In this document: positions 9,236 through 31,004 of the stretch, piece by piece | Layout of the letters: the number at the start of each line of letters is the position of its first letter | Numbering within the stretch: position 1 is the first letter of the stretch | DNA from: Rhodospirillaceae bacterium | GTDB lineage: Bacteria > Pseudomonadota > Alphaproteobacteria > Azospirillales > Azospirillaceae | NCBI GenBank assembly: GCA_029267445.1 | Contig: JAJUIU010000011.1 | Location: forward strand, 1 to 64,000 | Reading direction: 5' to 3' | DNA: 64,000 nucleotides | Notes under the pieces: model-generated | Told to the model about the DNA's origin: nothing | The model's input: only the letters and a program-made list of their open reading frames with translations | The model's database searches: none | Position numbers and translations under genes: made by a program

Positions 9236-9253
9236 GCCCGCGCCGGTCGCCGC

Positions 9254-10159
9254 TCAGGCCATGGCGAGCCCCTCCAGCATGTCCAGCATCTCCGGCAGGT
9301 CGGCGAAATCCGTTGTGCGGACCATCTGCCAGACTGGCACGCGCTGCGCCAGGCCGGCCGCCGCACGGAGCACGCGCAGCCGCCCGTGCAGCGCCTCGGC
9401 CAGATAGACACGGTAGGTCATGGCGTCCAGCACCGCCGCCGCATGGGCCGGCGCACAGCGGGTCAGGGCCGGCCGATGGGCCGCCGGATCGGTCCGCAGA
9501 TGCACGATGGCCGTCAGCGGTCTGGGCATGGGATCGAACGCCGCCGGCATCGGCACATGCCATTTGCCGGCCTTGCGCGCCACCGGCTGGTGCCCCTCCT
9601 GTCCGATCTCCAGCGCCGCGCGGCTCCTGTCCCACAGCCTGACGACGGGGAAGCAGGGCTGCGCCAGGGCGGTGTCCGGATCGATCACCAGCACGTCGTC
9701 GCCCAGCAGCCGGTGGCCCCGCCGCACCAGGGCGGCCGCCGTGGTGGACTTTCCGGCCCCGCTGTGCCCCGCGATGGCCAGCGCCCCGGCCCCGCCCAAG
9801 GTCCCGATGGCGCAGGCATGCAGCGGGATCGCCCCGCGCTGGTGGCAGATCACCCCCAGGCCGGGGCCCAGCAGCCAGCTCTGCACCTCGGCCAGAGCTG
9901 CCCCCGGTGCAGGATCGACGACGACGTTCCGCCCATCGGTGATGGCGATGCGCACGCAGCCCGGCGCGTCGATGACGACAGCACCGTCCGCGCCCACGGC
10001 GACCATGTCGCGCTCCAGCCGCAGGGGGGCCAGCGGGGGCGGCACGGCGCCCAGGCGCAGCCTGATGTCCGGCGGCGTCTCCGGCGCCGGGCAGGGGAAC
10101 AGGTGCGGAAGCGCCATCTCCGCCTCCAGGGTCCAGCCGCTGATGCGGTAATGGTGCAT
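9254..10159 (-). CDS. HPr-kinase-like lasso precursor kinase
   Basis: A 301-residue protein with a P-loop GHSGAGKST (131-139) followed by GHRLLGDDVLVID, the arrangement of the HprK C-terminal kinase domain. HprK-like proteins in lasso clusters (paeninodin, pseudomycoidin) phosphorylate the C-terminal Ser of the precursor, and the precursor here ends in Ser. The N-terminal 100 residues are a beta-rich domain unlike bacterial HprK. There is no PTS system nearby, which argues against true HPr as substrate. The start overlaps the B2 protease stop by one base. It is the last gene of the unit exporter-B1-B2-kinase. Confidence 0.88.
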   Translation of the reverse strand: MHHYRISGWTLEAEMALPHLFPCPAPETPPDIRLRLGAVPPPLAPLRLERDMVAVGADGAVVIDAPGCVRIAITDGRNVVVDPAPGAALAEVQSWLLGPGLGVICHQRGAIPLHACAIGTLGGAGALAIAGHSGAGKSTTAAALVRRGHRLLGDDVLVIDPDTALAQPCFPVVRLWDRSRAALEIGQEGHQPVARKAGKWHVPMPAAFDPMPRPLTAIVHLRTDPAAHRPALTRCAPAHAAAVLDAMTYRVYLAEALHGRLRVLRAAAGLAQRVPVWQMVRTTDFADLPEMLDMLEGLAMA

Positions 10160-10620
10160 CAGTGGGCCCTTGGCGCCGCGTACAGGCAGGCGTTCGGCGT
10201 GAAACCGTCCGCCTCCGCCCCGCCGATCAGGGCCTCGCCCCCCGTCACCAGCCAAGCGTGGGCGGTCATGACCCCGTCATCCAGGGCGACGCCGAACACG
10301 ATGTGCGCGGGGATGCGGCGGCGCGTCAGCATCATCCGCCCGGCCACGCAGCGGACCAGGCAGCTGCTGTGCCAAGGCAGGCGGGCGGCCATGGCGTCCA
10401 CCATGCGTCCCACGCCCCGCGCCCGCGCCAGAATTGGCGCCGACTGGGGATCCGCTCCGGCCAGCGCGGGGCCGGGATCGGGGCTGACCCCGCCGAACAG
10501 GCGGGCGGTGAGGCGGAACGGCAACCGGAACACCAGGAGCCACGCCACGCACAGGGCGAGCGCCGCCTCCAGCCGGAACAGCCGTGCGCGCATGCCGCGC
10601 GGGGCCGCCGCCGGGCTCAC
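10159..10620 (-). CDS. Lasso leader peptidase B2 (transglutaminase-like)
   Basis: A 153-residue protein with the McjB C-terminal fold. The catalytic Cys is probably Cys87 in SSCLVRCVAGRMML, followed by RRRIPAHIVFGV and the His motif TAHAWLV (His121). The third triad member is not obvious. In split-B lasso systems B2 cuts the leader after B1 has bound it. A hydrophobic helix near residues 18-32 may tether it to the membrane. The GTG start overlaps the B1 stop (GTGA), so the two are translated together, as expected for one split enzyme. Confidence 0.9.
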   Translation of the reverse strand: MSPAAAPRGMRARLFRLEAALALCVAWLLVFRLPFRLTARLFGGVSPDPGPALAGADPQSAPILARARGVGRMVDAMAARLPWHSSCLVRCVAGRMMLTRRRIPAHIVFGVALDDGVMTAHAWLVTGGEALIGGAEADGFTPNACLYAAPRAH

Positions 10621-10895
10621 GCCACGACTTTCACCAGCCCTTCGCCGGCCATGCGGTCCAGCAGGCGCAGGACGTCCGCGGTGATCACCTCCAGCGGGGC
10701 GGCATAGGCCTGTTCCAGGGCCGCGCAGAGGTCACCGACCCGCACCTGCCGTTCCAGACGGTTCCAGATGTCGCAGCCGATGGCGTCCAGGGAAAAGTAC
10801 TGCCCGCTCTCAACGTCCATCATGACCAGTTCATCGCCGACCTCGCTGGACAGGCAATGATCCGTCCGGACGAGCACGGTGTCGATCGTCACCAT
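10617..10895 (-). CDS. PqqD-like RiPP recognition protein B1
   Basis: A 92-residue PqqD-fold protein. The pattern MMDVESGQYFSLDAIGCDIWNRLE and a C-terminal helical part (VITADVLRLLDRM) is typical of RRE domains that bind RiPP leader peptides. Here it should bind the W-x-x-P-x-L leader of the precursor and present it to B2. The ATG at 10895 follows AGGGTG. It is coupled by a 4-base overlap to B2. A 157-base gap separates it from the exporter gene. Confidence 0.9.
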   Translation of the reverse strand: MVTIDTVLVRTDHCLSSEVGDELVMMDVESGQYFSLDAIGCDIWNRLERQVRVGDLCAALEQAYAAPLEVITADVLRLLDRMAGEGLVKVVA

Positions 10896-11052
10896 CGTGA
10901 AGCACCCTGGAACGGCCCCGTCGTCCCGTCGCCGCCGACAGGACCACGGCCCATTCTTAGTGGATAAAGCCGTGGCGTGAAAGCGCCAACCCGGTCCGGA
11001 CGGCGCGTTCAACACCACCGGCGCGGGTCGCCCGTCCACCGCGCGTCCCCGC

Positions 11053-12981
11053 CTATCCGGAGGGGAAGGGGCTGACCGGAGCCGCCGGCCGACCCTCCTG
11101 CGCCGGGTCGAGCATGCCGAGCTCGGCGAGACGGGCGCCCGCGGCGCGGCGCACGGCCGGCCAGTCGCCCGCCGCCGCAACCCGCCCCTCCTCCAGCAGG
11201 ATGACATGGTCGGCGTGGCGCACCGTGGCCGGCCGGTGGGCCACCACCAGCACCGTCGCCCGGCCACGCAGCCGATCCAGGGTCGCGGCCACCAGCCCCT
11301 CCGTCTCCTGGTCGAGCGAGGCCGTCGCCTCGTCCAGCACCAGCAGCGACGGGCGGCGCAGCAGTGCCCGGGCCAGCGCCACCCGCTGGCGCTCCCCGCC
11401 CGACAGCGCCATGCCCCGGTCGCCGACGACCGTGTCCAGCCCGCGCGGCAGACGGTCGACGAAGGCGAGCCCCGCCGCCTCCTCCAGGGCCGCGCGCAGC
11501 GCCGCCTCGTCCGCCTCCGGCCGGGCCAGCAGCAGGTTCGCCCGGATCGTGTCGTGGAACAGGAACGGGTCCTGCGGCACCAGCCCGACCCGCCGGCGCC
11601 ACGCCCGGCGCAGCCCGGCCGACAGGGGCACGCCGTCGATCGCGACGGCACCCTCCGTGGGGGACGCAAGCCCCGCGACCAGATCGGCCAGTGTCGATTT
11701 GCCGGCACCCGTCGGCCCGATCAGGGCCGTGACCCGGCCCACGGGAATGACCGCGTCCACCCCGCGCAGGCCCGCGCGCCCATCGGCGAACCGCACCGCC
11801 ACCCCCTCCAGCCGGATCTCACCGACGGGCTCCGGCGCCGCCTCCGCCGGTTCCGGCTCCGCCGCCGCGCGGCAGCGCGCCAGCGCCCGCTCGTAAGCCT
11901 CCAGGGCGGGCAGGGACGCCGTCATCCGCCGCCAGTGCGTCAGGGCGCGCAGCAGGGTCTGGCTCAGCCGCCCGAATGCCAGGATCAGGGCCGCCGCCTC
12001 GGCCAGCGACAGGCCCATGACGGTCACTGCGGCCAGCAGGGCCACGGCCACGGTCACCGCCGCCGCCACCTGCAGCGCCGCCTTCTCCAGCGCCTGCATC
12101 CGAACATGGTCGATCTGGGCCGCGCGCAGGGCCGCGAAGTGCCGCTCCATCAGGCCGGCGCGCGCCCGCTCGGCGCCGAACGCCTTGATCACCCTGAGAC
12201 CGGCGAGATCGTCGGCGAGGTCGGCCATCATCGCGCGCGACGCCTCGCCCTGCCGCCGGCCCAGGGCGAAGGAAAGCCGGCCCAGCCGCCGCGTCGCCAC
12301 AAGGGCGAGGCCGGCCAGCGCCAGCGTCAGCAGCGTCAGCCCCGGTGACAGGACCAGCGCCACCACGAGCATGGTGGGCACCAGCATCAGCGCCACGAGC
12401 AGCGTCATCACCGATTCGAAGACGATACCCATGCGGCCGACCTCGACCGTCATGATCTCCTTCAGGTCCGATCCGCGCAGGCTCTGGAAATCCGGCCAGG
12501 ACATCGCCAGCGCCGCCGCGTGCAGGCGGGACCGCAGGCCGTCCAGCAGCCGTGTGCGCAGGGTCGCCGCGGCCACGCTCCGCCCGGCAAGAAGGGCGGC
12601 GGCCGCCGCGACGATCAGGAGATAGAGGCCGAGGGCTCCCGCCAGCGGGGCCATGCCCACGGGCTCCGCCGCGCCGCCGCCGAGGCCGAGTGCGGAAAGC
12701 AGCGGGATCAGCATCAGAATGCCGATCCCCTCCGCCGCCGTGGCGGCAGCCGTCAGCCCGAGAAGGCCGCCGATCCGGCGCCCCCCGGCTTCGTCCGCGA
12801 TGAGGCGGAGGAAGCGGCGGGCGAGGGCGGCCGGTGTCGCGGGCGGAGCGCCGTCCAGGTGACCGGAATGGGGTGCCAAGGCATCGATCCGCTGCTGACG
12901 GCCCCGGTCATTCCGAGGCGGCGCCGACTGTCGCGCGCATTGTTCCGGATGCGCGGCGCGGGCGCAACGGCCGCCGACCAT
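11053..12981 (-). CDS. ABC transporter, lasso peptide exporter (D protein)
   Basis: A fused membrane plus ATPase half-transporter of about 640 residues. Six helices are followed by an ATPase with Walker A GPTGAGKST (near residue 422), Q-loop VPQDPF, signature LSGGERQ (near 526), Walker B LLVLDE (near 546) and the switch His in VAHR. In lasso clusters such proteins export the mature peptide and often give self-immunity. The start is uncertain: ATG 12981 is given, but the family similarity begins near 12879, where a TTG is possible, and the frame is open to 13008. Its gene is the first of a leftward unit with B1, B2 and kinase. Confidence 0.9.
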   Translation of the reverse strand: MVGGRCARAAHPEQCARQSAPPRNDRGRQQRIDALAPHSGHLDGAPPATPAALARRFLRLIADEAGGRRIGGLLGLTAAATAAEGIGILMLIPLLSALGLGGGAAEPVGMAPLAGALGLYLLIVAAAAALLAGRSVAAATLRTRLLDGLRSRLHAAALAMSWPDFQSLRGSDLKEIMTVEVGRMGIVFESVMTLLVALMLVPTMLVVALVLSPGLTLLTLALAGLALVATRRLGRLSFALGRRQGEASRAMMADLADDLAGLRVIKAFGAERARAGLMERHFAALRAAQIDHVRMQALEKAALQVAAAVTVAVALLAAVTVMGLSLAEAAALILAFGRLSQTLLRALTHWRRMTASLPALEAYERALARCRAAAEPEPAEAAPEPVGEIRLEGVAVRFADGRAGLRGVDAVIPVGRVTALIGPTGAGKSTLADLVAGLASPTEGAVAIDGVPLSAGLRRAWRRRVGLVPQDPFLFHDTIRANLLLARPEADEAALRAALEEAAGLAFVDRLPRGLDTVVGDRGMALSGGERQRVALARALLRRPSLLVLDEATASLDQETEGLVAATLDRLRGRATVLVVAHRPATVRHADHVILLEEGRVAAAGDWPAVRRAAGARLAELGMLDPAQEGRPAAPVSPFPSG

Positions 12982-13093
12982 GGCGCGTGCCGGCACCCTC
13001 CGATTCAACGGCGGCGTCGCGGCGGGATGACGCCGGGCCCCCGACAGCCTATCATCCGCGCGTGTTTCGCCTTCGTCACGGGGTCCGCACGCC

Positions 13094-15337: not shown

Positions 15338-16843
15338 TCACCATGATCCGCGGCCCTTGAGGACCTCGAACGCCGTCCGGGCCAGGATGTGGATGTCCAG
15401 CCACAGCGACCAGTTCCGGACATAGTAGGTGTCCAGCCGCTGCTGGTCGGCCAGGGTGCAAGCGCTGCGCCCCGACACCTGCCAAAGGCCCGTGATCCCC
15501 GGACGCACCTTGCTGCGGACCTGCCGCGTGGCGGGGGCGAGGGCGGCGAGGTGATAATCGGGCAGGGGGCGGGGGCCGACCAGGCTCATATGCCCGGCCA
15601 TCACGTTCAGCAACTGCGGCAGCTCGTCGATGCTGAAGCGGCGCATCAAGTGGCCCACACCCGGCACCAGCCGGGGGTCGTGGCGCAGCTTCATGCCGGC
15701 CTGCCATTCCTCCCGCAGGCTCGTGGAGGCCGCCAGAAGTTCCTCCAGCCGGGCTTCGGCGTCCGGATGCATGGTGCGCAGCTTGATCATCCGGAACGGC
15801 CGCCCGTCCAGCCCATGGCGGACCTGCGTGAAAAAGACCGGCCCGGGCGACAGCGCGACCAGGGCCAGCGCGAACGGCAGGCAGACAAGGAAGGCGAAGG
15901 GCAGGATCGATGTGGTCAGCGCGAGGTCGAGGACCCGCTTCACCAGACGGTTCGCGGGCACCAGCAGGTTCTGCTGGATCTCCAGACCAAGCCGTCCGCC
16001 CACGTCCCGGACACTGGCCCAGAGGCTCTGCGCCTCCTCCAGATCGGTCACCAACACGACGCGGCGGTAAGGCAGGCCCGAATCCCAGGAGAAGCGCTTC
16101 AGCGTCCCTTCCGGCGCCGTGATCAGGGCAAGGTCCACCGCCGGGGCGCCCCGGGTGCCAAGCGTGGGAAGCTCCGCCTCCACGGCGGGAATCCAGCCAA
16201 GATCGGGGGTGCGCCGCAGCGAAGCCACCAGGGCCGCACGCCGGTCCTCGGGCCCCAGCACGGCGATCGGCACCCCCCATGCTCCGGCGCGGATCAGCAG
16301 CCCCCGGGCGACCGCATCCCATCCCGGCACGGCGAAGACGGCGATGACGCCGGCGATCAGCAGGATGCCGCGCGACCATTGTCCGCCCTGGGCGACATGG
16401 TCGAACAGCAACATGCCGCCGAAGCACAGGGCCGTGATCGTCACCCTGTCCCGCAGGCGTTCCACCGGCGTGCGGCCATACCCTGGATAGGCGCCGGTCA
16501 CCAGGAACACGACGGGCAGGAAAAGGACGGCGAGATGAATGCCGAGGAAGGTCTCGGGGTGGATTTCGATGGGGAGCCACGGGACCAGCGCCGCGCGCAG
16601 AAGGATCGCCAGGATCACGACCACCTGCAGCAGCAGCGTGTCGCCGACCAGGAGGATCAGCGCCGACCGAAGTGAACCCCTTCGGCCGGCGTTCCGCAGG
16701 AGAGGGGGGCCTTCCGCCTCGCGCGCATGCCCCCCCAAAGGGCCGGCGCAGTGATCGCTCGCGTCCACGCCGCCGTGGCCCGAGCCGCCCGGCAGGTCCG
16801 GACCCTTGACGTTCGGCCGATCCTCTTCCGCGGATAGAGTCAT
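15338..16843 (-). CDS. Polyprenyl-phosphate sugar-1-phosphate transferase (exopolysaccharide initiation)
   Basis: A 501-residue PHPT enzyme. It has several N-terminal helices, a CoA-binding-like middle domain and a C-terminal Bac_transf domain starting RLVKRVLDLALTTSILPFA, with SPGPVFFTQVRHGLDGRPFRMIKLRTM and the later GLWQVSGRS. It loads the first sugar phosphate on undecaprenyl phosphate at the inner membrane. The start ATG 16843 was chosen because the frame above it is low-complexity and holds a tandem 15-base repeat (16936-16965). It probably forms one operon with the barrel gene upstream and the wecG-like gene downstream. Confidence 0.92.
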   Translation of the reverse strand: MTLSAEEDRPNVKGPDLPGGSGHGGVDASDHCAGPLGGHAREAEGPPLLRNAGRRGSLRSALILLVGDTLLLQVVVILAILLRAALVPWLPIEIHPETFLGIHLAVLFLPVVFLVTGAYPGYGRTPVERLRDRVTITALCFGGMLLFDHVAQGGQWSRGILLIAGVIAVFAVPGWDAVARGLLIRAGAWGVPIAVLGPEDRRAALVASLRRTPDLGWIPAVEAELPTLGTRGAPAVDLALITAPEGTLKRFSWDSGLPYRRVVLVTDLEEAQSLWASVRDVGGRLGLEIQQNLLVPANRLVKRVLDLALTTSILPFAFLVCLPFALALVALSPGPVFFTQVRHGLDGRPFRMIKLRTMHPDAEARLEELLAASTSLREEWQAGMKLRHDPRLVPGVGHLMRRFSIDELPQLLNVMAGHMSLVGPRPLPDYHLAALAPATRQVRSKVRPGITGLWQVSGRSACTLADQQRLDTYYVRNWSLWLDIHILARTAFEVLKGRGSW

Positions 16844-16980
16844 AGTCGCGCGATCACCCGTACCGACATCACCCGAGCCGCCGGCACCCTTGCGGCGCCG
16901 GGGCCATTGCGCTGGCCGTGCGCGCGGTTTGACGGCGTACGGTCGGACTGCGTACGGTCGGGCTGCGGACCGCGCGCCGC

Positions 16981-18378
16981 TCACATGCGCAGGCCGAACC
17001 GGACGAGCACGACCGTCTGGTCGAAAGCCGACGAGGCGATGTTGGAGGTCCGCTCGCGATAGCCGATCTCGCCGCCCACGAAGTACTCCGGCGCCAGCGC
17101 CCAGATGGCGCGCAGGCGGCCCTCGTAGGTCCAGTTGCGCTGCCCGGCGCCATCGAAATCCTCCCGACCGATGCTGCCGGTCGCCGTCAGCACGACGTTC
17201 CGCGCCAGCTCGTGCCGGACGAGGATGTTGGCGGCGGTTCGGACGAGGCCCGACGCGTTCAGCGTCGTCGTCTCCTGCACCGAGCGTTCAAGACTGGGCA
17301 CCACCACCGTCAGGCGGCTCGGCGTCCAATTGAAGGAGGCGCGCAGCGACAAGCCTTCGGGATTCTGGAGGCGCGCGTCCTCATAGTCCTGTTCGAAATA
17401 TCCGACCAGGAAATCGCCGCGGATCAGCTGGCTGATATCGATGCCGATGCCGCCCTCGATCCGGTAGCCGTCGCTGGACCGGTTGAAGCCCTGGTCGTCG
17501 ACCGCATCGTCGTAGTCGCGCCAGTTGGCGCTGGCCGCGGCGATGGCGGCATAGCCGCGCGACACCTCGTAGCCGACCCGGCCGCCGACGCGGAACTCGT
17601 CCCGGTCGCGGTCGTCGTTGTTGATGATCTGCCCATTCGCCGCCTCGACATCGCGGAACACGCGACGGGCGGCACCGGCTTCGGCAGACACCGTCCATAA
17701 TCCGAGCTGCGCCTTGGTCTCGAGATTGCCGGTGACGCTGCGCGACCGGGTCGGCGACTGCCCGCCGACGGCGTCGGGGCTGCCCCTGTCTTCGAACAGC
17801 TGGCTGACGTCCACGGTCGCCCTGGCTTCCCACTCGCGCGTGAAATCGTAGCGCCCGTCGGCCTGGAACGTGGCGTCCAGGTGGTTGTCGTCCGTGTATT
17901 CCCAATAGAAGAACTGGTCGGCCCGTGCGAGCAGGTTCAGCTCATGCACCGGGAAGCGGGAGCGCAGCCGGAACTCCGGGACGACTCGGGTGATGAAGTC
18001 GCCGCGGACGTCGGTGGACGCCGCGAAGACGTTGGTGTTGTAGGACTGCGTCACTTCGATCTGGGGGAACAGCAGGAACTGCCCGATCTCGATCCCCTTC
18101 GGCTGGAACGCCTCGTCGACCCGCTGCGGGTCCCTTTCGCCCGAGCGGTCGGCCGCGGGGTCCGCCTCCTTGACGATGGCGGCACCGCGCTGGTCGTTGG
18201 TGCCGGCGGTTGTCTGGGCCTGGGCCGGGACCGTGAGCAGGGCCAGCGCAGCCGTGGCGCACAGGAGGCCGGTTCTTCCGCCCCCCGCTGATCGGCTGCG
18301 AACCGCATCTTCGGTGACGGGGGCGAAAGAAGCTTGGCCTGAAGGCATCGGCGTCACCGGGTCGTATGAGCTAGCCAT
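16981..18378 (-). CDS. Outer-membrane beta-barrel protein (BBP2-like) of the EPS locus
   Basis: A 465-residue secreted protein. After about 40 residues comes a signal-like segment GLLCATAALALLTVPAQAQ, then a periplasmic part and a long run of alternating amphipathic strands (FPVHELNLLARADQFFYWEY and similar) ending in VVLVRFGLRM with an aromatic near the C-terminus, as expected for a barrel recognised by BAM. Such barrels in polysaccharide loci are thought to guide polymer through the outer membrane or organise the exporter. A promoter candidate (18393-18421) lies just upstream. The long N-terminus before the signal may mean the real start is ATG at residue 11 (MPSGQASF). Confidence 0.82.
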   Translation of the reverse strand: MASSYDPVTPMPSGQASFAPVTEDAVRSRSAGGGRTGLLCATAALALLTVPAQAQTTAGTNDQRGAAIVKEADPAADRSGERDPQRVDEAFQPKGIEIGQFLLFPQIEVTQSYNTNVFAASTDVRGDFITRVVPEFRLRSRFPVHELNLLARADQFFYWEYTDDNHLDATFQADGRYDFTREWEARATVDVSQLFEDRGSPDAVGGQSPTRSRSVTGNLETKAQLGLWTVSAEAGAARRVFRDVEAANGQIINNDDRDRDEFRVGGRVGYEVSRGYAAIAAASANWRDYDDAVDDQGFNRSSDGYRIEGGIGIDISQLIRGDFLVGYFEQDYEDARLQNPEGLSLRASFNWTPSRLTVVVPSLERSVQETTTLNASGLVRTAANILVRHELARNVVLTATGSIGREDFDGAGQRNWTYEGRLRAIWALAPEYFVGGEIGYRERTSNIASSAFDQTVVLVRFGLRM

Positions 18379-18392
18379 TTGTATTACCAACA

Positions 18393-18421
18393 ATGCTAGC
18401 AGCCACCCGTTATTGCTTCAA
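18393..18421 (-). promoter_or_regulatory. Candidate promoter for the beta-barrel/EPS initiation operon
   Basis: TTGAAG (18416-18421) and TAGCAT (18393-18398) on the minus strand have a 17-base spacer. They lie in an AT-rich gap of 210 bases between the beta-barrel gene and the poly-Asn protein gene. The predicted start would be very close to the ATG at 18378, giving a short or leaderless transcript, or the ATG at residue 11 is used. Confidence 0.35.
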
Positions 18422-18588: not shown

Positions 18589-19665
18589 TCAGGTGGGGCT
18601 GGCGGTGAAGCGGGGGGGCTGTTCGGTCGGGGGCGGGTTGTTGGCCTGCTGATTATTGTTGTTGTTATTATTATTGTTGTTATTGTTGTTGTTGTTACTA
18701 TTGTTGTTCTGCGGATTGCTCGCCTGCTGCGGGTTGTTCCGGGCGAGGATCGCGTTGACCTGCGAGGCGTTCGTCGGATTCGACTGGTTCAGCGACGTCG
18801 ACGTGCTCGCCTGGTTCAAGGTCTGGGTCACCGTCTGCGCCGCCTGCGGGGCAGCCGCCTGGACGGTCGTCGACGTCGCCGCCGAATAGGCGTTCGCCAT
18901 GGCGGAGATGGCCGCCTGCGGTGCAGCATTGTAAACGGCCGGGGTGGAGACGACCTGTGTCACGGCCACCGCGATGCCGGCAGCAGCCGAGGGGGCGGCC
19001 TGCTGGGCGGTGGGCTGGACGATGATCCTGGCCGCCGTGGTCGCGACCGTCATCGTCTGTTGCGGGGCCGCCTGGCTCACCGTCTGCGCCGATACCGCCT
19101 GCACGGCCGACGCGGCAAGCTGCACGGCGGCGGCCGGGGCGATCTGCACGATGCGCTCGGCCGTGGACACGGCCGCGCTCGCAACGCTGGCCACAACGGC
19201 CGGGTTGTTCGTCGCCGTCGCGACCGAGATCGCGGCCGCGGCCACGGAGGCCGCTGCGGTCGGCGCCACCTGCTGCACCGCCGGCGCCACGAAGATGCGG
19301 GCGGCGATGGTCACCACGTCCTGCGTCTGCTGCGGGGCCGATGCCTGCACAGGCGCGTTGCGGACAATCTCCACCGCGGCGCCCGCCACGGTGATGGCCG
19401 CCTGTGGGTTGGTCTGCACCAGCTGCTCCGCCGCCGCGACGACCTGCGCCGCCAGCTGGCCGGCCCGCTGCGGGTTGCCGGCGCTCAGCACATTGATCGC
19501 CTGCTGCACCGAGCTTGCGTTGCCCGACAGCACGGCGGCCCTGAGCGCCGGCGGCAGGGCATTGATGCCAGAGGCCTGCTGCCCCTGCTGTGCGAAGGCG
19601 GGAACCGGCGCCTGCAACGCGGTCGCGGCGAGGAGAACGGCGACGAGGGCACCCACGCGGACCAT
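18589..19665 (-). CDS. Secreted Ala/Gln/Val-rich protein with poly-Asn tract
   Basis: A 358-residue protein with a clear signal peptide (VGALVAVLLAATALQAPVPAFAQQ). The mature part is built from about eight related segments of roughly 25-35 residues with patterns such as QAAPQQTMTVATTAARIIVQPTA and PAVVASVASAAVSTAERIVQ, probably amphipathic helices. Near the C-terminus 18 Asn and one Ser form an uninterrupted tract (18652-18708), followed by QQANNPPPTEQPPRF. I do not recognise a family. Its position between EPS barrel and Wza genes suggests a role in the matrix or export machine. It is divergent from the wza-like gene. Confidence 0.75.
   Translation of the reverse strand: MVRVGALVAVLLAATALQAPVPAFAQQGQQASGINALPPALRAAVLSGNASSVQQAINVLSAGNPQRAGQLAAQVVAAAEQLVQTNPQAAITVAGAAVEIVRNAPVQASAPQQTQDVVTIAARIFVAPAVQQVAPTAAASVAAAAISVATATNNPAVVASVASAAVSTAERIVQIAPAAAVQLAASAVQAVSAQTVSQAAPQQTMTVATTAARIIVQPTAQQAAPSAAAGIAVAVTQVVSTPAVYNAAPQAAISAMANAYSAATSTTVQAAAPQAAQTVTQTLNQASTSTSLNQSNPTNASQVNAILARNNPQQASNPQNNNSNNNNNNNNNNNNNNNQQANNPPPTEQPPRFTASPT
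18652..18708 (-). repeat. Trinucleotide (AAC/AAT) tract coding poly-Asn
   Basis: Nineteen consecutive codons: 18 Asn (AAC and AAT mixed) and one AGT Ser. AT-rich triplet repeats are rare in such a GC-rich genome. The tract could vary in length by slippage without shifting the frame. Confidence 0.9.
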
Positions 19666-19931: not shown

Positions 19932-20537
19932 ATGAAGCCCCTTTCGAAACCGCTTCTGTCGAAATCGTTCCTGCCGGTCGCCCTTCTCGCCGCCCTGGCC
20001 GTGCCGCTGGCGGGCTGCGGCCGGACGGTCGGCACCTTCCCGGCCGAGCGCGCGCCGATGACGACGGAATCGATCCAGGGCTATCTGCTGGAGCCCGGCA
20101 ATCGCGTCCGCGTCACCGTCTTCAACGAGCCGAACCTCTCGGGGGACTTCACCCTCGATCCCCAGGGAAACATCTCCATTCCCCTGGTCGGCAACGTCCC
20201 CGCCAGCGGGATCACCGCCAAGGTGCTCGCCCGGCGGATCGAGGACGTGCTGAAGCGCGAGGGGCTGTTGCAGTCCCCCGCCGTGGCGACGGAGGTGCAG
20301 ACCTTCCGGCCCTTCTACGTGCTGGGCGAGGTGCGGCAGCCCGGAGAGTTCCAGTACTCCTCCGGCATGACGGTGCTGAGCGCCGTCGCGCGGGCGGGCG
20401 GCTACGACTACCGCGCCATCGTCGGCGAGGTGGTCCTGGTTCGCGTGGTCGACGGGGTCCAGCGCGAGTACCGCGCCTCGGAGCTGACGCCGATCATCCC
20501 CGGCGACATCGTCCGCGTGCTGGAGCGGCGGTTCTGA
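19932..20537 (+). CDS. Polysaccharide export lipoprotein, Wza-like
   Basis: A 201-residue lipoprotein. The signal ends in the lipobox LAGC with Cys29. The Poly_export domain starts at QGYLLEPGNRVRVTVFNEPNLSGDFTLDPQGNISIP (read in parts), followed by one SLBB-type domain (FYVLGEVRQPGEFQYSSG). It forms the outer-membrane/periplasmic channel for Wzy-dependent polymer. It is shorter than E. coli Wza, having one SLBB domain and no C-terminal outer-membrane helix, so a separate barrel (perhaps 16981-18378) may supply the outer-membrane pore. The ATG 19932 was chosen because the lipoprotein signal begins there. Confidence 0.92.
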   Translation: MKPLSKPLLSKSFLPVALLAALAVPLAGCGRTVGTFPAERAPMTTESIQGYLLEPGNRVRVTVFNEPNLSGDFTLDPQGNISIPLVGNVPASGITAKVLARRIEDVLKREGLLQSPAVATEVQTFRPFYVLGEVRQPGEFQYSSGMTVLSAVARAGGYDYRAIVGEVVLVRVVDGVQREYRASELTPIIPGDIVRVLERRF

Positions 20538-20612: not shown

Positions 20613-21974
20613 ATGAGCCGCGCGCGCCTTCTCTGCCTCTGCGTCATCGGCCTCCTGCTGTTCGGCTATGCCATCGGCGGGCGCGGCTTCGCCTATCTGG
20701 GCGTGCCGCCGCTGTTCATCGGCGAGATCGCGCTGGGGGCGGCCGTCCTGCTCTTCCTGGTGTCGCCGCAGTTCCGACCCCTGTTCCAGTCGCGGATCGT
20801 CTGGCTGATCGGCGCCCTGATCGTCTGGTGCCTGATTCAGACCCTGCCCTATCTCGGCGAGTTCGGACTGGACGCCCTGCGCGACGCGGTGCTCTACGGC
20901 TATGCGGCCTTCGCCCTGCTGATCGCGGCGTGCCTGACCAGCCCGAAACTGGTGATCGGAGTGGTTCGGACGTATCAGCACGCGGTGGTCATCGCCCTGC
21001 CCATGATGCTTCTGGTGATAGCCCTGACCGGTGATCCCGGCCAATTGGATGCGGCGGATGAGGGGGTTGGGCTTTGGCTCAAGCCGGGCGATATCGGGGT
21101 TCACCTCGCTGGCGCCGCCGCATTCTTCCTGTTGAGATTGCATTCGGACAGGATATTCGGCACCAGGGCGCAACTGGTCTCCATATTCTTCTGGTCAGTA
21201 TGGGTCGTCCTGGCGATCTACGTTGCCGCACACGGCCGCGGAGCCTTGCTGGCAATGATCGCGGCATTCGGCGTTCTCTTCATCATGGGCATCCATAGGC
21301 GTCTGCTGATTACCTTCGCAGGTGGAATAGTACTGGTGCTTTGGGTGATGGTCGCCCTCGATATCAGAATCGACCAGGAAAGGCGGGACATCTCCGCCGC
21401 TCAGATCATCGCGAACACGACCAGCATCATCGACCGGGGTGCGGCCACGCGTGGCGGTATCGATACCGCTGATCTCGGCAACACGATCGAATGGCGCCTG
21501 CGCTGGTGGGGCGACATCATCGATTACACGGTGACGGGCGAGTACTTCTGGACGGGCAAAGGTTTCGGCATCAACCTCGCCGACTCCGACGGCTACCAGA
21601 CCGACCATATCAACAACAGCCTGCGCAGCCCGCACAATGGGCATCTGACCTATCTGGCCCGGGCGGGCGTTCCGGGCTTGTTGCTCTGGACGGCATTACT
21701 TGTCGTGTTCGGCATGTCCCTCGTTCTGAACACGGTTCGCATGAAGAGTCATGGTGCCGATGGATGGGCGCGCTTGAATTTGTGGGTGCTCTGTTACGCC
21801 GTCGCATCGATCGTGAACGGAACATTCGACGTTTATCTTGAGGGCCCGCAGGGTGGGATTTGGTTCTGGTCAATCTTCGGCTTCGGTCTCGCAGTCCTAG
21901 CTCTGGAGAGACAGGCACTCGCCACACATCAACAGCCAGTTTCGCCGCATCTGGAATTCCGGAGCGCGGCATGA
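20613..21974 (+). CDS. O-antigen ligase/polymerase-like protein (Wzy candidate)
   Basis: A 453-residue inner-membrane protein with about ten to twelve helices. The Wzy_C/O-antigen-ligase motif is in the long periplasmic loop: IEWRLRWWGDIIDY, then GKGFGINL and RSPHNGHLTYLARAGVPGL, where the His is conserved. It probably polymerises the repeat unit at the periplasmic face. It follows wza by 75 bases and precedes the flippase by 28. The GC content falls from about 20,940 onwards compared with the surroundings. Confidence 0.85.
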   Translation: MSRARLLCLCVIGLLLFGYAIGGRGFAYLGVPPLFIGEIALGAAVLLFLVSPQFRPLFQSRIVWLIGALIVWCLIQTLPYLGEFGLDALRDAVLYGYAAFALLIAACLTSPKLVIGVVRTYQHAVVIALPMMLLVIALTGDPGQLDAADEGVGLWLKPGDIGVHLAGAAAFFLLRLHSDRIFGTRAQLVSIFFWSVWVVLAIYVAAHGRGALLAMIAAFGVLFIMGIHRRLLITFAGGIVLVLWVMVALDIRIDQERRDISAAQIIANTTSIIDRGAATRGGIDTADLGNTIEWRLRWWGDIIDYTVTGEYFWTGKGFGINLADSDGYQTDHINNSLRSPHNGHLTYLARAGVPGLLLWTALLVVFGMSLVLNTVRMKSHGADGWARLNLWVLCYAVASIVNGTFDVYLEGPQGGIWFWSIFGFGLAVLALERQALATHQQPVSPHLEFRSAA

Positions 21975-22002: not shown

Positions 22003-23316
22003 GTGAGCGCCGAACGCTCCAGGTCCTCCCAGGGCCGCCACATCCTGCTGGAACTGGCGGCGACCGGCGTGGGCGAGGGCGGTCTCCGTGTCGCGCAACT
22101 CCTGACCATCGTCCTGGCGGCGCAGGCTCTGGGCGTCGAGGCGTTGGCTCTGGTTGGGATCGCATGGTCACTGACCGCCATCGCTTTGGCGTTTGTACAG
22201 GGCGGGGTCGATCTCGCGGGCATGCGCGCGGTCGCCGCCCTGGACCCCCTGGACCGCCAAAGTCACTCGACCATATCGGCGCTGACGCGCCACAAGCTTT
22301 CCCTGATGCTTCTGAGCGTGCCGTTTCTTTTCGGCGGCCTTCTCCTCACGGGGTATTCCACAGCGGAGGCGATCGCCCAGCTCGCGGCCCAGACGGCGGC
22401 CTCCATCCTGTCGGCCATGGGCTTGACATGGGCCTTCAGGGGATTGAGGCGTCCTGGCGATGTCCTGGCCGTGCGGGCCGTTCAAGCGGTCATAACGTTG
22501 TTGGCTCTCTGGGGCGCGCTGTCCCTGTGGCGGCACCCGCTCAGTATTCCCCTGGCGGAAGCGATCGGGGCCGCGACTGCCCTCGTCATTGGGCGCCTGC
22601 GGCTCGGGCCGGTCACCGACGATGTCGGCTTGCTCAAGAAGCCGTCACAGGATTCGTTGGTTCTTGGCTGCGTCGCGTTGCTCCACACCCTCGGCTGGAT
22701 GATGCCGATTCTGGCGGCGGGGCGCATGAGTACCGCGGAAGTGACGGGCCACATGGCCGCTTGCTTGCGGCTGTTCCTGGGGATCAGCGGTATTCTGCAG
22801 TTGCTTTATCAGGTTCTGTATCCTATCCAGGCTAGGCTTTTCATCATCGACCCAGAAGATGCGAAGAAGGCTACTGTTTCACTTATATTATATTCGGCCG
22901 TCCTGTCGGCGGTATTAACCTCGATATTGTACGTGCTAACGCCGGTATTTATTCCAATTCTACTTGGGCCGGATTTCCCCTTCGCGGTCAATTTGTTTCA
23001 GGATTTTCTGATTTTACTCATTCCAATACTTCTCGCCTCGCCCATCACGTATGGATTGATGGCGCAGGGGCATGCGCACGCCGCCGCCATGCTTGCAATA
23101 TTGATGGCTGTGGGGATGGTGACGGCAAGCATCGTCATGTTCGCCGGGCGATCGCCCTCGGTGCCAGGCCTGTGGCCGCTCCATTTCATCCTATGGGTCC
23201 ATTTCGTCGCCGCCCTTGTCCTGGGATGGAGATACGCAACCATCGACCTGACCGATCCGCGATCGGCACAGCTGCTCGCCCCCTCCAAACTCGCCAAAGT
23301 CCTGGTGCGACGCTGA
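22003..23316 (+). CDS. Polysaccharide flippase (Wzx/MATE-like)
   Basis: A 437-residue integral membrane protein with about twelve predicted helices and few charged residues. The N-terminal segment (LLELAATGVGEGGLRVAQLL) and overall pattern fit the oligosaccharide flippase superfamily, which moves polyprenyl-linked repeat units to the periplasm. No single diagnostic motif is present, so the call leans on topology and position between the polymerase and glycosyltransferase genes. It starts with GTG at 22003. The part around 22,850-23,060 is strikingly AT-rich, as is common for exchanged wzx genes. Confidence 0.78.
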   Translation: MSAERSRSSQGRHILLELAATGVGEGGLRVAQLLTIVLAAQALGVEALALVGIAWSLTAIALAFVQGGVDLAGMRAVAALDPLDRQSHSTISALTRHKLSLMLLSVPFLFGGLLLTGYSTAEAIAQLAAQTAASILSAMGLTWAFRGLRRPGDVLAVRAVQAVITLLALWGALSLWRHPLSIPLAEAIGAATALVIGRLRLGPVTDDVGLLKKPSQDSLVLGCVALLHTLGWMMPILAAGRMSTAEVTGHMAACLRLFLGISGILQLLYQVLYPIQARLFIIDPEDAKKATVSLILYSAVLSAVLTSILYVLTPVFIPILLGPDFPFAVNLFQDFLILLIPILLASPITYGLMAQGHAHAAAMLAILMAVGMVTASIVMFAGRSPSVPGLWPLHFILWVHFVAALVLGWRYATIDLTDPRSAQLLAPSKLAKVLVRR

Positions 23317-24295: not shown

Positions 24296-25494
24296 CGGCC
24301 AGCCCAATGCGGCCGCGTCTCCGCATCCTGCTGGTCCATAACCGTTACATGAACCCTGGCGGGGAGGACGTTGTCCTGGAGGCGGAGCGTGACCTGCTGC
24401 TGCGGTTCGGTCACGCGGTGGACGTCTTCACGCGACAGAACGAGGATATCCGTGGTTTGGCGGGAAATGTGGGCGCCGCTCTGACGGCGGCATACAACCC
24501 GTCAACCAGGGCCGCTTTTGAGAAGTCGATCGCGGATTTCGGACCCGATGTCGTTCACGCGCATAATCTATTCCCTGTCATCAGTCCGTCTATTTACAAC
24601 GCCTGCAATGCAGCGCGCATCCCCGTTGTTCAGACACTTCACAATTACAGGCTTCTGTGTCTCAGCGCCAATCTCTACAGGGATGGGAAGGTCTGTGAGG
24701 CCTGTGTCGGTCAAGTCCCGATCCAGGGCGTCAGGCATCGCTGTTACCGCGGATCGGCCGCCGGTTCCGCCGCCGTCGCCACCGCGTTCCAGGCGAATTG
24801 GTGGATGGGGACCTGGAACAAACGGGTCGATCTGTACATCGCGCCCACCGCGTTCGCGCGGGAGAAGTTCATCGAAGGGGGGCTCAGGCCTGAATCGGTC
24901 AGGGTGAAGCCGCACTTCGTCAACCTCGACCTCGACCATCCTGCCAAGGGGCCGCGCGACCTTGGCGCTCTCTATGTCGGACGGCTCGTCAAGGAGAAGG
25001 GCGTGACGACCCTGCTGGAAGCGTGGCGCGGCCTCACGGTTCCCCTGAGGATCGTCGGCTCCGGGCCGCTGGCCGATGCCGTGCGGGCCGAGGGGAACCC
25101 TTGGGTCGAGTACTGCGGGCAGCTCGACAGACGGGACATTCCCGCGCTGATGCGGAGGTCACGCTTTCTGATCGTTCCGTCCGAATGGTTCGAGACGTTC
25201 GGCCTGGTCATCATCGAAGCGATGTCCGCCGGATTGCCCGTCATCGCCAGCCGCCTCGGCGCGATGGGGGAGCTCGTCAGCCATGAAACGAATGGACTCC
25301 TCTTCACCGCCGGGAACGTCGATGAACTGCGCGCCAGGGTGACCTGGGCATGGGAGAACCCGGAGGCGATGCGAGCCATGGGGGCTGATGGAAGGGCCCG
25401 CGCCGGGCGGCTCTATTCGCCGTCCGCGAACCACGACGCATTGCTGAGCATCTATAGCGAGGCCATGGCCGGCGCGGCGCGCCGGCGCGCTTAG
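24292..25494 (+). CDS. Glycosyltransferase family 4
   Basis: A 400-residue GT-B glycosyltransferase. The N-terminal part has ILLVHNRYMNPGGEDVVLEAE and DVVHAHNLFPVISP. The C-terminal domain has LYVGRLVKEKGVTTLLEAW, RIVGSGPL and the E-x7-E motif in WFETFGLVIIEAMSAGLPVIAS. There is a small Cys-rich insert near residue 125-150 (CEACVG, HRCYRG) seen in some GT4 subfamilies. It adds a sugar to the lipid-linked repeat unit on the cytoplasmic face. It overlaps the methyltransferase by 4 bases and ends in a convergent overlap with the next gene. Confidence 0.92.
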   Translation: MTASPMRPRLRILLVHNRYMNPGGEDVVLEAERDLLLRFGHAVDVFTRQNEDIRGLAGNVGAALTAAYNPSTRAAFEKSIADFGPDVVHAHNLFPVISPSIYNACNAARIPVVQTLHNYRLLCLSANLYRDGKVCEACVGQVPIQGVRHRCYRGSAAGSAAVATAFQANWWMGTWNKRVDLYIAPTAFAREKFIEGGLRPESVRVKPHFVNLDLDHPAKGPRDLGALYVGRLVKEKGVTTLLEAWRGLTVPLRIVGSGPLADAVRAEGNPWVEYCGQLDRRDIPALMRRSRFLIVPSEWFETFGLVIIEAMSAGLPVIASRLGAMGELVSHETNGLLFTAGNVDELRARVTWAWENPEAMRAMGADGRARAGRLYSPSANHDALLSIYSEAMAGAARRRA

Positions 25495-26237
25495 TTCGGG
25501 CCGGGTCGAACCTGCGGCTGCCCGTGCATCCGGACATGCCGCTCCATCTCGAGACCCGTCAGCTCCGCCAGCGCCCCGGCCACCAAGGCGGCCGTTTCAG
25601 GCTGGGCGCCCAGCTCCATCACCGGGCCGGGCCGGATCACCCAGGTCTGCCGGATCTGGCGGCGCAGCAGCGCCTCCATCTCCGCATCCATGTACGGGCG
25701 CAGACGCAGCGCCAGGGTCAACCTGTCGACCATGATCACCGGCTCGAACGAGCCCGTCAGGAAGGACATGCGCAGGGCGGCGACGGCGCCCGCCATGTCG
25801 CCCCGCCGCTCCCGCAGCCAAGCGAGGCGCAGCCAGGCGCCGGGGTTGCCCGGCGCCAGGGCGAGGCCGTCCACCGTCGCCCGTTCCGCCGCCTCATAGA
25901 GGGGGGCGGCACCGTCGACCGGTGTGCGCACCGCCGCCCGCAGCAGCAGGAAGCCCCGATCGAGCTCCAGCTCGCCCGAAGCGCTCCAGCGGCCGGCGGC
26001 GGCCAGTGCCGCCTCGGCCGCCCGGATCCGCTCCACCGGAACCTCCACCCCGCTGTACAGATCCCACAGGACCGACCGGGACGGCAGCGCCAGCGCCGCG
26101 GCGATGACGCGGGGTGCCGCCAGCCCCAGCAGGACCAGCCCGATCACGCCCGCCACGAGCGCCGCCGCGCGGTGGGATGGGCGGTGGCCGGGCCGCCCGC
26201 GCGCGTCAGCTGCCGTAATAGTCGCGGTAGCGTCCAT
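25491..26237 (-). CDS. Membrane-anchored TPR-like protein of the EPS locus
   Basis: A 248-residue protein with one N-terminal membrane helix (AALVAGVIGLVLLGLAAPRVIAA, in two parts) and a periplasmic region rich in Ala and Arg helices. The segments LYEAAERATVDGLALAPGNPGAWLRLAWLRERRGDMAGAV (read in parts) resemble a TPR pair. Similar proteins occur beside wzc-like genes in alphaproteobacteria, without known function. Its first 32 bases overlap the end of the wzc-like gene, so it is translationally coupled and probably works with it. Confidence 0.72.
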   Translation of the reverse strand: MDATATITAADARGRPGHRPSHRAAALVAGVIGLVLLGLAAPRVIAAALALPSRSVLWDLYSGVEVPVERIRAAEAALAAAGRWSASGELELDRGFLLLRAAVRTPVDGAAPLYEAAERATVDGLALAPGNPGAWLRLAWLRERRGDMAGAVAALRMSFLTGSFEPVIMVDRLTLALRLRPYMDAEMEALLRRQIRQTWVIRPGPVMELGAQPETAALVAGALAELTGLEMERHVRMHGQPQVRPGPN

Positions 26238-28494
26238 AATACTGACCGTAGTCGCCGTAGCCGTAGCCCACGTGCTTGGACTGGTTCACCTGCGACAGCA
26301 CGATGCCATAGGGCACGACGCCCGCCTGCCGCAGCAGCTTCAGCCCGTTGCGCACCGCGTCGCGGGGCGTGGCGTTCCACCGGATCAGATAGATCACGCG
26401 GTGCGCCAGCCGGGCCAGGATGCGGGAATCGGCGACCGCCAGGACCGGTGGGGAGTCGATCACGATCCGCGTGTAGCGCTTGCGCAGATCCAGCAGCAGC
26501 GCCTCGAACTGCGGCGCCTGGATCAGGTCGGTGATGTTGCCGCTCCGGCCGGCGGGCAGCAGGTCGACGGACCCGGCCGCCTGCCGCTGCACGGCCTGAT
26601 CGAAGGTGACCGACCCCTCCAGCACGTTGGCGAGGCCGACCTCGGCCTCGTCGCGGCCCAGTGCGGCATGGATGCGCGGCCTGTGCAGGTCGGCGTCGAT
26701 CAGCAGGACCTTCTCCTCCACCTTCGACGTCATCACGGCGAGGCAGAGGGAAACGAAGGTCTTGCCCTCCTTCGGGACGGAGGACGTCACCACCGTCACG
26801 TGGGCGATGCCGGGCGGGACGCCCAGTTCCAGCGCCGTGCGCAGGTTGCGCACCCCGTCGGCCAGGGCCGAACGTGGCCGCTGCATCAGCTCCTCCACGG
26901 GGCGGTCGACTTTGCCCCGGTGCAGCGGCACAAGCGCGATGGTCGGCAGCCCCGTCAACTCCTCCACCTCGTCGGAGGAGCGCAGCGCGTTGTCCAGCCT
27001 GTCGATGATGAAGACCAGCACGATCCCAAACAGGGCGGACAGCACGAGCGCCACCGCCACGACGGCTTGCGAGCGCGGGTACGAGGCCGCCACCGGCACC
27101 TCGGCGGGGGATACGATGCGGGCGTTGGCGCGCTGGGCGCGCTCCATCTCCGCTTCCCGCTTGAACCGTGTCAGCAGGGACTCATACAGGCTCTTGGTCG
27201 CCTCGGCCTGCCGCTCCAGCTCGCGCAGGCGGACCTCTGCCGCGCCGGCGGCCGTGGTCTCCTGCCGCAGCGACTCCAGTTCCGATACCAGCGACCGCAC
27301 GCCTGCGGCGGCGACATCCACCTCGTTGGCGAGCGACGCCGCGATCTTCTCGATCTCGCCCGCGATGTTGCGCTGGAGGTCCTCCAGGTCGGCCCGCAGC
27401 CCGACGATGCGGGGATGGCGGTCGCCATAAACCTTCTGCGCCTCCGACACCTCGCGCGACTTCAACGCCTCCTGCTCGCGCAGGCGCTGGATCAGCGGGG
27501 ACTGCAGCACGTCGCTGGCCGTCTCCACGCTGCCCCGGGTGCGCGACAGCGACCGGACCTGGGCGAGCCGCGCCTGCTTCTGCGACAGGTCGGCGCGGGC
27601 CAGCACGAGACGGGAGTTCAGTTCCGAAAGCTGCTGGTCACTGATGGTGGCCCGGCGCTCGTCGCTGCGGCGCAGATTGTAGGTGGCGCGGAACGTCTCC
27701 ACCGCGTTCTCCGCGACGACCACATCCTGGCGCAGCCCTTCCAACCGGTCGCCCAGCCAGTTGGTCACGCGGCGGGCGTCCTCGAAGCTGGCCTCCAGCC
27801 GGTCAAGCACATAGGCCTCGGCCACGGCGTTGGCGATCCGCGCCGCCTTCTCCCGGTCCTCCGACACGAATCGGATGGAGATGACGTGCGACCGCCGTTG
27901 CGGCAGGACGGTCAGGCGGCCCGTGAAGGCCCTGATGATCCGGGCTTCTCGGACGTCCTCGCGGGCCGCGGTGCTCAGATCCGCCGCACCGCCGTCGGCC
28001 GGGCGCAGCAAGGTGCCGATCCAGCGCATCGGGTTGAGCGAGGCGATGATGGTGTCGACCGCGCGTGCCTCGCGGAGCTCGGCGTTGAATTCGGGGTCCT
28101 GGTCCAGATTAAGCTTCTCGATCACCCGGCGCGCCAGCAGGGTGGAGGAGATCAGTTCCGCCTCCGTCTGCACGACCGCGTCCGTCAGCCGCTGGCGCCC
28201 GACCACGAGGTTGCGGTCGGTGAGCAGGTCGTTCGTCTCGGGCGCTTCGATGACCAGCACCGCCTCGGCCGTGAAGCGGGGTGTGATCTGCTTGACCAGC
28301 AGCAAGGTCGGCGCGACCACGAGCAGGATGCAGGCCAGGATGATGAACTTGCCCCGCCACAGGACTCGGCTGGCCCAGCGGACCGTCTGCCGGAAATCGG
28401 CCGCCCAGTCGCTACCCTCCACCGGCTGCGCCCGGTCCGGCCCGCCCAGCCGCAGTTCCTCGACGGTGGGGGCTCCGCTCTCGTGCCGGTCCAT
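26206..28494 (-). CDS. Wzc-like polysaccharide co-polymerase and tyrosine autokinase
   Basis: A 762-residue fusion. It has a Wzz domain with first helix about 49-68, a long coiled-coil periplasmic region (240-450), a second helix about 475-497 and a BY-kinase with Walker A SSVPKEGKT (571-579), Walker A' LLIDADL (597-603) and Walker B VIDSPP (678-683). The C-terminus carries eight Tyr between 744 and 760, the autophosphorylation cluster. Such proteins set chain length and gate export through phosphorylation cycles. No cognate low-molecular-weight Tyr phosphatase is in the window; the phosphatase at 30201-31004 is of another family. Confidence 0.94.
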   Translation of the reverse strand: MDRHESGAPTVEELRLGGPDRAQPVEGSDWAADFRQTVRWASRVLWRGKFIILACILLVVAPTLLLVKQITPRFTAEAVLVIEAPETNDLLTDRNLVVGRQRLTDAVVQTEAELISSTLLARRVIEKLNLDQDPEFNAELREARAVDTIIASLNPMRWIGTLLRPADGGAADLSTAAREDVREARIIRAFTGRLTVLPQRRSHVISIRFVSEDREKAARIANAVAEAYVLDRLEASFEDARRVTNWLGDRLEGLRQDVVVAENAVETFRATYNLRRSDERRATISDQQLSELNSRLVLARADLSQKQARLAQVRSLSRTRGSVETASDVLQSPLIQRLREQEALKSREVSEAQKVYGDRHPRIVGLRADLEDLQRNIAGEIEKIAASLANEVDVAAAGVRSLVSELESLRQETTAAGAAEVRLRELERQAEATKSLYESLLTRFKREAEMERAQRANARIVSPAEVPVAASYPRSQAVVAVALVLSALFGIVLVFIIDRLDNALRSSDEVEELTGLPTIALVPLHRGKVDRPVEELMQRPRSALADGVRNLRTALELGVPPGIAHVTVVTSSVPKEGKTFVSLCLAVMTSKVEEKVLLIDADLHRPRIHAALGRDEAEVGLANVLEGSVTFDQAVQRQAAGSVDLLPAGRSGNITDLIQAPQFEALLLDLRKRYTRIVIDSPPVLAVADSRILARLAHRVIYLIRWNATPRDAVRNGLKLLRQAGVVPYGIVLSQVNQSKHVGYGYGDYGQYYGRYRDYYGS

Positions 28495-30241: not shown

Positions 30242-31004
30242 GCACAAGGGCCGTCAGCACGCCGCTGGCGTAGGCGCCCGTGTCGACGGCGATCCGGTTC
30301 TCCAGCAGTTCGGGCGCGTCGACCACGGTGTGGCCGTGCACGATCACCTTCTCGTGCCGGCGACGGTCGGTCAGGAACGGATCGCGCATCCACAGCAGGT
30401 CGTCCGCGACCTGGGCGTCCAGCGGCCGCCCCGGCCGGATGCCCGCATGCACGAAGGCGTAGTCGCCGACGACGACATACAGGTTCAGCGCCCGCAGGAA
30501 ATCCAGATGCGCGGGTGGCAGGGCCTTCTTCAGGGCGTCGCGCCAGCCCATGCAGCGGGCCGGGATCACGGTCCCCGGCGCGCCCAGGGCGCCATAGCTG
30601 CCCAGCGTTTCCAGCCCGCCGAAGCGCAGCCAGCCCATGGCGGCCACCGGGTCCTCCAGGAAGTCGAGCATGGCCGCCTCGTGGTTCCCCATGAGGAAGT
30701 GCGTCTCGAACCCCGGCAGGGGGCGACCGATCAGCCGGTCCAGCACGCCGCGGCTGTCCGGCCCCCGGTCGACATAGTCGCCCAGGAAGACGACCACCCG
30801 CCGCGCGGGTTCCAGCCGCTCGGCGTCGGCCCTGATGGCGTCGAGAAGGTCGTCCAGCAGCCTAAGTTCCCCGTGGATGTCGCCGATGGCGTAGACCACC
30901 GTCCCCGGCGGCACTTTAGGCGGCCCCGACGGCGGCGCGGGGCCGCGGACCGACCGCCGCACGCGGTCGGCCAGAACATCGAAGGCTTGGATCAGCGTCC
31001 GCAT
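30201..31004 (-). CDS. PPP-family Ser/Thr protein phosphatase
   Basis: A 267-residue metallophosphoesterase. All metal and phosphate motifs are present: GDIHGE, GDYVDRG, MGNHE, and later the HAG and VHGHT motifs. This resembles bacterial PrpA/PrpE-type phosphatases and the symmetrical ApaH relatives; phosphoprotein or dinucleotide substrates are both possible. It lies between an EPS polymerase gene (convergent, 41-base overlap) and fliG (same strand, 145 bases upstream). A role in reversing kinase signals for EPS or motility is only a guess from position. Confidence 0.9.
   Translation of the reverse strand: MRTLIQAFDVLADRVRRSVRGPAPPSGPPKVPPGTVVYAIGDIHGELRLLDDLLDAIRADAERLEPARRVVVFLGDYVDRGPDSRGVLDRLIGRPLPGFETHFLMGNHEAAMLDFLEDPVAAMGWLRFGGLETLGSYGALGAPGTVIPARCMGWRDALKKALPPAHLDFLRALNLYVVVGDYAFVHAGIRPGRPLDAQVADDLLWMRDPFLTDRRRHEKVIVHGHTVVDAPELLENRIAVDTGAYASGVLTALVLNGEERRFLQARR

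Follow-up and report, generated by a model that had tools for sequence, protein, structure and literature searches.

The window, by which we mean the whole 64,000-nucleotide stretch of DNA analyzed here, carries an EPS locus in which the gene for an Asn-rich protein, referred to below as NRP, is flanked by a gene for a BBP2_2 β-barrel and a gene for a short OPX protein. This is the placement given in the original prediction, which had described the gene as lying between barrel and Wza-like genes. The features of the locus and of the NRP gene that are used below are the following:

15338–16984 (−), exopolysaccharide initiating sugar transferase, WbaP-like (Pfam/NCBIfam)
16981–18393 (−), BBP2_2 outer-membrane β-barrel (E = 7.8e-93), of a subtype confined to NRP-positive genomes in the 82-genome set
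18589–19665 (−), NRP, 358 aa plus stop (ORF list, homologs)
19588–19665 (−), probable Sec signal peptide of NRP, residues 1–26 (judged by eye; residues 1–31 have low confidence in the AlphaFold model)
18736–19569 (−), predicted all-helical solenoid core of NRP, residues 33–310, built of helix pairs that each take up about 24 residues, with a tandem duplication of 90 residues (AlphaFold, self-similarity, one-unit variants)
18652–18708 (−), Asn tract of NRP, residues 320–338, within a polar linker (11 AAC, 7 AAT, and 1 AGT codons; linker comparison)
18592–18609 (−), C-terminal peptide FTASPT of NRP, whose SP[ST] is kept at the extreme end of relatives
19932–20537 (+), short OPX protein, Wza-like (Poly_export and SLBB; lipobox LAGC by eye; subtype distribution)
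20613–21974 (+), candidate polymerase, Wzy_C/O-antigen ligase-like (Pfam)
22003–23316 (+), Wzx-like flippase, Polysacc_synt (Pfam)
26206–28494 (−), Wzz/Wzc-like co-polymerase with a tyrosine-kinase-type ATPase domain (domain searches)
30201–31004 (−), calcineurin-like metallophosphoesterase (domain search)

The locus also holds a WecG-like gene. The OPX reading frame is open from 19701 on the plus strand, a frame of 278 aa, and its likely start at 19932 gives a protein of 201 aa. Poly_export and SLBB are its sole domain matches, so that it has the size and the lack of a C-terminal membrane-spanning domain that define a short OPX protein (at most 280 aa, the cut-off given in the part of PMC9601211 on which we draw). 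With the barrel gene adjacent to NRP and the OPX gene nearby, the locus has the neighboring barrel expected of a composite translocon; an AlphaFold model built from two sequences, which was to be compared with the 18 strands of such a barrel, had a mean pLDDT of 37. A relative of the metallophosphoesterase is found within 10 kb of 21 of the 27 NRP copies in the family and lies 10.5 kb away in the window, where an ORF just past it (31150–32172) was named FliG-like by eye. A further gene (25491–26237) encodes a 248 aa protein with weak, below-cut-off TPR matches; the end of the co-polymerase gene runs into its start, and relatives of this protein occur in 11 of the 27 family loci. Beside the EPS locus, positions 7376–13008 hold genes of the Asn_synthase, HPr-kinase-like, transglutaminase-like, PqqD, and ABC transporter types, which together we take to resemble lasso-peptide clusters; in the Thalassobaculum locus, too, a gene annotated as lasso peptide biosynthesis B2 lies close to genes for PqqD, ABC transporter, and nucleotidyltransferase proteins.

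The ORF at 18589–19665 (−), originally read as the gene of a secreted protein, is real and encodes 358 aa, beginning with a probable Sec-like signal peptide, judged by eye to be MVRVGALVAVLLAATALQAPVPAFA and followed by QQ. No lipobox or membrane anchor is apparent by eye, and the genome carries a single copy of NRP. The protein matched no family in Pfam or NCBIfam, and hence no known carbohydrate-binding domain; no PDB sequence matched the family profile A4, built from 20 of the 27 family copies, at E 0.1; and no description of NRP was found in the open-licence literature. Over residues 37–310 (274 aa), the core consists of 30% Ala, 13% Val, and 12% Gln, with only 1 Asp, 3 Glu, and 7 Arg. The dN/dS of the core was 0.09 to 0.30 in the ten closest pairs, indicating that the gene is under purifying selection.

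The AlphaFold model built from the window protein and one relative predicted an all-helical core at residues 33–310. In this model, 194 of the 358 residues reached a pLDDT of at least 90, while most of the two tails (residues 1–31 and 312–358) fell below 50. Helices in the second half of the core are paired, at about 24 residues per pair. When the core was compared with itself in 23 of the 27 family copies (omitting the one-unit G061, G062, and G030 and the divergent G051), similarity peaked at offsets of 90, 48, 24, and 138 residues, in keeping with the Ala/Val/Gln repeats originally proposed. Versions of NRP with one 90-residue unit are found in G061, G062, G030, G121, G244, and G396. We considered whether the type of co-polymerase sets the number of units and rejected this: G061, G062, G030, and G121, all one-unit, have no close co-polymerase, yet G244 and G396, also one-unit, do have it, and the two-unit G012 and G076 are without it. 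TPR repeats are 34 residues long, and neither the window protein nor 20 core members gave a Pfam TPR match, the repeat offsets here being 24 and 90; weak Pfam matches in single family members look like chance. Among the matches listed, structure searches with VIA-align returned only generic helical repeats (ARM, HEAT, and TPR solenoids, designed and natural), the best being a designed protein with a Z score of 14.2 and an rmsd of 8.4, and Foldseek gave no match at E 0.001 or better. We therefore dropped any named fold for NRP, whose core is predicted to be a nearly uncharged α-solenoid.

The Asn tract comprises 19 codons (11 AAC, 7 AAT, and 1 AGT), the longest pure Asn run being 15. As Asn accounts for only 1.8% of codons in 15 neighboring ORFs and the GC content of the window is 68.9%, a run of this kind would hardly arise by chance, and its AT-richness follows from the Asn codons being AAY. 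The tract had been described as a triplet microsatellite. The 19 AAC/AAT/AGT codons are indeed at 18652–18708, but the codons are mixed and Tandem Repeats Finder (TRF) scored the tract higher at a period of 15 bases (score 93, 88% matches) than at a period of 3 (score 57), with matches of 84 to 88% overall, so that it is better called an interrupted array than a pure triplet repeat. A search for related loci with the Asn pattern returned at least one relative. Across the 27 copies in 25 family genomes, the segment after the core is 30 to 70 aa long and mostly polar and of low complexity, and its main residue is Asn in the window and G025, Thr in G069, G072, and G018, Gln in G049, and a mixture in other copies. 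Given this substitution, we rejected an Asn-specific function, and a special role for Asn is not supported; the run looks like an interchangeable flexible linker. Of the five species pairs that are closest, one showed the proposed variation in length (G031 and G032, with linkers of 48 and 51 aa at 96% core identity); in the other four pairs, lengths are equal (50/50 three times and 34/34) although residues have changed. The records of A. oryzae COC8 and KACC 14407, the one pair from a single species, do not differ and are probably of the same type strain.

Beyond the variable linker, the very end of the protein is conserved. In 32 relatives (the 27 family copies plus G116, G121, G244, G396, and G457), counted back from the C-terminus, position −4 is Ala, Gly, Ser, Thr, or Val in all 32, position −3 is Ser in 31, position −2 is Pro in 29, and position −1 is Ser or Thr in 28, giving a tail that often reads [FL]T[AG]SP[ST]-COOH; departures from SP are seen in G033, G012, and G051. 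That the tail is kept past a tether that is not suggests, from sequence comparison, a docking peptide. We considered a general sorting tag instead and dropped it, because the pattern is nearly confined to NRP relatives. In the own genome, the DNA pattern for F-T-[AG]-x-SP-x-stop had two matches, one in NRP and one ending in TGG in place of the stop, and among 1,673 ORFs from 38 sources, [AGSTV]SP[ST] stood at the end of 28, namely 27 rows of NRP relatives (26 distinct genes, as L059 duplicates the window) and one spurious-looking ORF of the window.

To place NRP among exporters, we compared its distribution with those of the OPX protein and the barrel. NRP is present in 25 of the 82 family genomes, as 27 copies, where absences, here and below, hold among the candidates scored per genome (at most 28 for NRP in the family, at most 6 for NRP in the class and phylum samples, and at most 7 for OPX in the class sample); an order-level search returned the same 82 genomes. 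A close barrel subtype (at least 39% identity and at least 325 bits, all others reaching at most 193 bits) occurs in 24 of the 82 and a close OPX subtype (at least 231 bits in full copies, others at most 155) also in 24, these thresholds having been set by eye in wide score gaps after the scores were seen. The two sets of 24 are the same genomes and all are NRP-positive; the other family genomes have a distant barrel type (about 25–34% identity) or none. In 200,000 within-genus shuffles of NRP, none reached 24 and the maximum was 18. Among 385 genomes sampled across the class, NRP is present in 8, and these are the same 8 that carry OPX of at least 58% identity (at least 222 bits, the next being 155); the NRP and OPX samples, whose negative genomes are listed in part, were taken as the same 385 from their equal size and matching handles; these 8 span five families, and 3 of them are also in the 82-genome set. 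Searches for a close co-polymerase (at least 51%) were positive in 24 of 30 genomes with NRP and in 0 of 2 genomes without it. NRP is thus associated with one exporter subtype, a conclusion we hold with high confidence.

The genes are also physically linked. Of 30 full copies of the OPX subtype, 29 share a contig with NRP, at a median distance of 369 bp and at less than 1 kb in 20 of the 29, distances being taken between matched stretches rather than gene ends and the count omitting the NRP copies that lack the OPX subtype (G076 and the second copy in G032). In G051, a partial OPX gene lies beside NRP and the full copy is on another contig, and in G012, G244, and G396 the two genes are 15 to 24 kb apart. 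Gene order and strand vary among loci. The same neighbors surround a gene annotated as hypothetical protein in Thalassobaculum sp. OXR-137, A. oryzae KACC 14407, and Azospirillum sp. TSH100, and these three named NRP loci sit on plasmids. The expectation that homologs would accompany EPS genes was confirmed for 26 of the 27 family copies, among them the second G032 copy, which has no close OPX gene within 10 kb. The exception is the orphan copy of G076 (L041:9330–10382), beside MeaB, FIST, and acyl-CoA dehydrogenase genes; this genome, a single contig, has neither the OPX nor the barrel subtype. In G244 (L076:8156–9922), a FecR domain precedes the NRP module in one 588 aa ORF ending in FQASPT.

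A phylum sample of 398 genomes gave matches only in the own genome and in G500, from another class, whose NRP-like protein starts similarly (LNALPPALRAAMQSGD) and ends in FSGSPT, with a core that has diverged and a linker of Gln in between; there (L088:93–4418), sugar transferase, NRP-like, barrel, and OPX genes stand in a row on one strand. As the OPX protein of G500 is of a distant kind (42%), tail-bearing partners may extend past the close OPX subtype. Three other OPX/barrel sets (G000, G009, and G061) contained no NRP-like ORF by similarity or tail, the ORFs of such sets having been picked by a rough heuristic that missed the OPX gene of L083, and NRP is therefore apparently not general to OPX/barrel export.

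From its predicted fold and its co-inheritance, we consider NRP most likely to act as a scaffold or guide. We propose, at a probability of about 0.48, that NRP is an accessory of one clade of composite OPX/β-barrel exporters, acting as a periplasmic solenoid scaffold with a tethered docking peptide. In this model, NRP would be exported by Sec, its core would fold as a nearly uncharged α-solenoid, and a polar low-complexity linker of 30 to 70 aa, here made of Asn, would tether the conserved C-terminal peptide. The solenoid would be placed in the periplasm under the outer membrane, where the short OPX protein has no membrane-spanning part of its own; the peptide would dock on the OPX protein, the barrel, or the co-polymerase, and the docked solenoid would organize the exporter or guide the polymer to the barrel. 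Several observations count against this model: the orphan copy of G076, the second G032 copy, the OPX/barrel sets that seem to manage without NRP, the generic nature of the structure matches, and, should it prove a relative, the dispensable Sphingomonas gene prmB taken up below. In a bolder version, which we put forward tentatively and lean against, NRP would be the third core subunit of an OPX/β-barrel exporter class of its own. Its solenoid would hang on a disordered leash, and its SP[ST] peptide would serve specifically for docking or gating; the peptide is retained in G500, where the solenoid has diverged past most of the profile, while the linker is rewritten species by species. The composite OPX/β-barrel route was reportedly described in 2022. 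If the model is right, a co-inherited solenoid with a tethered conserved tail is a candidate for the missing part that joins a short OPX protein to its barrel and co-polymerase.

The gene had originally been taken for an uncharacterized matrix or export component; it is uncharacterized, its product is probably exported, and it is tied to EPS export, but a special role for Asn is not supported. A matrix protein released from the cell to bind or cross-link the EPS of the locus, its low-complexity linkers giving flexibility, is in our view doubtful. The probable Sec signal without lipobox or membrane anchor (by eye) would suit it, as would the linkage to polymer loci, the polar linkers and repeats, which fit surface proteins, and the G244 relative fused behind a FecR domain. 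However, NRP tracks the OPX and barrel subtype while other surrounding genes vary, a pairing that favors export over a matrix role; moreover, no Pfam or NCBIfam domain, and so no known carbohydrate-binding one, was matched, and no route across the outer membrane was identified for NRP. A regulator of the exporter, which plugs or gates it with the tail or reports polymer flow to the co-polymerase, would explain both the subtype-specific pairing and a tail kept after an unconserved tether; we consider it unlikely, since there is no clean match between the co-polymerase subtype and the number of units (one or two), and the binding site of the tail is putative.

We give very little credence to the Asn tract being a length-variable contingency tract that tunes NRP between strains. 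It is a triplet array, low-complexity runs recur at the same place in relatives, and one close species pair differs in length in frame, but the array is interrupted, linkers are equally long in four of the five closest pairs, Asn can be swapped for Thr or Gln, and the two A. oryzae records, though probably of the same strain, are identical. Least probable to us is a dispensable hitch-hiker, whose link to the exporter would reflect common ancestry and transfer, even with three named loci on plasmids and an orphan copy in G076. A parallel for dispensability comes from the promonan cluster of Sphingomonas LM7, where, in the portion of PMC11340318 considered here, the hypothetical gene prmB appears in the gene list flanked by the initiating transferase and the barrel, and its deletion left EPS unaffected; the NRP-like gene of G500 occupies the corresponding place, and the two are compared here by position. 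Against dispensability stand the purifying selection on the core, a linkage that survives rearrangement of gene order, and the NRP–OPX pairing across five families.

Among known systems, the locus most resembles in its gene content the composite translocons EpsY/EpsX and WzaX/S/B with their barrels (PMC9601211, PMC9603273). As far as the relevant parts of these papers go, short OPX proteins do not themselves include the part that spans the membrane, and a separate barrel is proposed as their partner; the short OPX protein, the adjacent barrel gene, and the Wzz/Wzc-type co-polymerase are shared with the present locus. The difference is the extra co-inherited solenoid, as the same parts mention no such partner for EpsY/EpsX or WzaX/S/B. 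With ARM, HEAT, and TPR solenoids at large, NRP shares its general helical-repeat architecture, the matches being generic only. A functional parallel is offered by synthase-dependent export, in which, according to the portions of PMC9734138 and PMC9384988 used here, a TPR solenoid beside the barrel binds the polymer and partner enzymes. Like AlgK and the TPR scaffolds of PgaA, PelB, and BcsC, NRP is a probably exported helical-repeat protein that goes with a polysaccharide-exporting barrel, as its linkage and subtype co-occurrence indicate. AlgK, however, is a lipoprotein (PMC9734138, in the part cited), whereas NRP shows no lipobox by eye, and NRP differs from these scaffolds in being without a TPR match and nearly chargeless, in its 24-residue repeats, in belonging to an OPX pathway, and in carrying a long polar linker that ends in a conserved C-terminal peptide.
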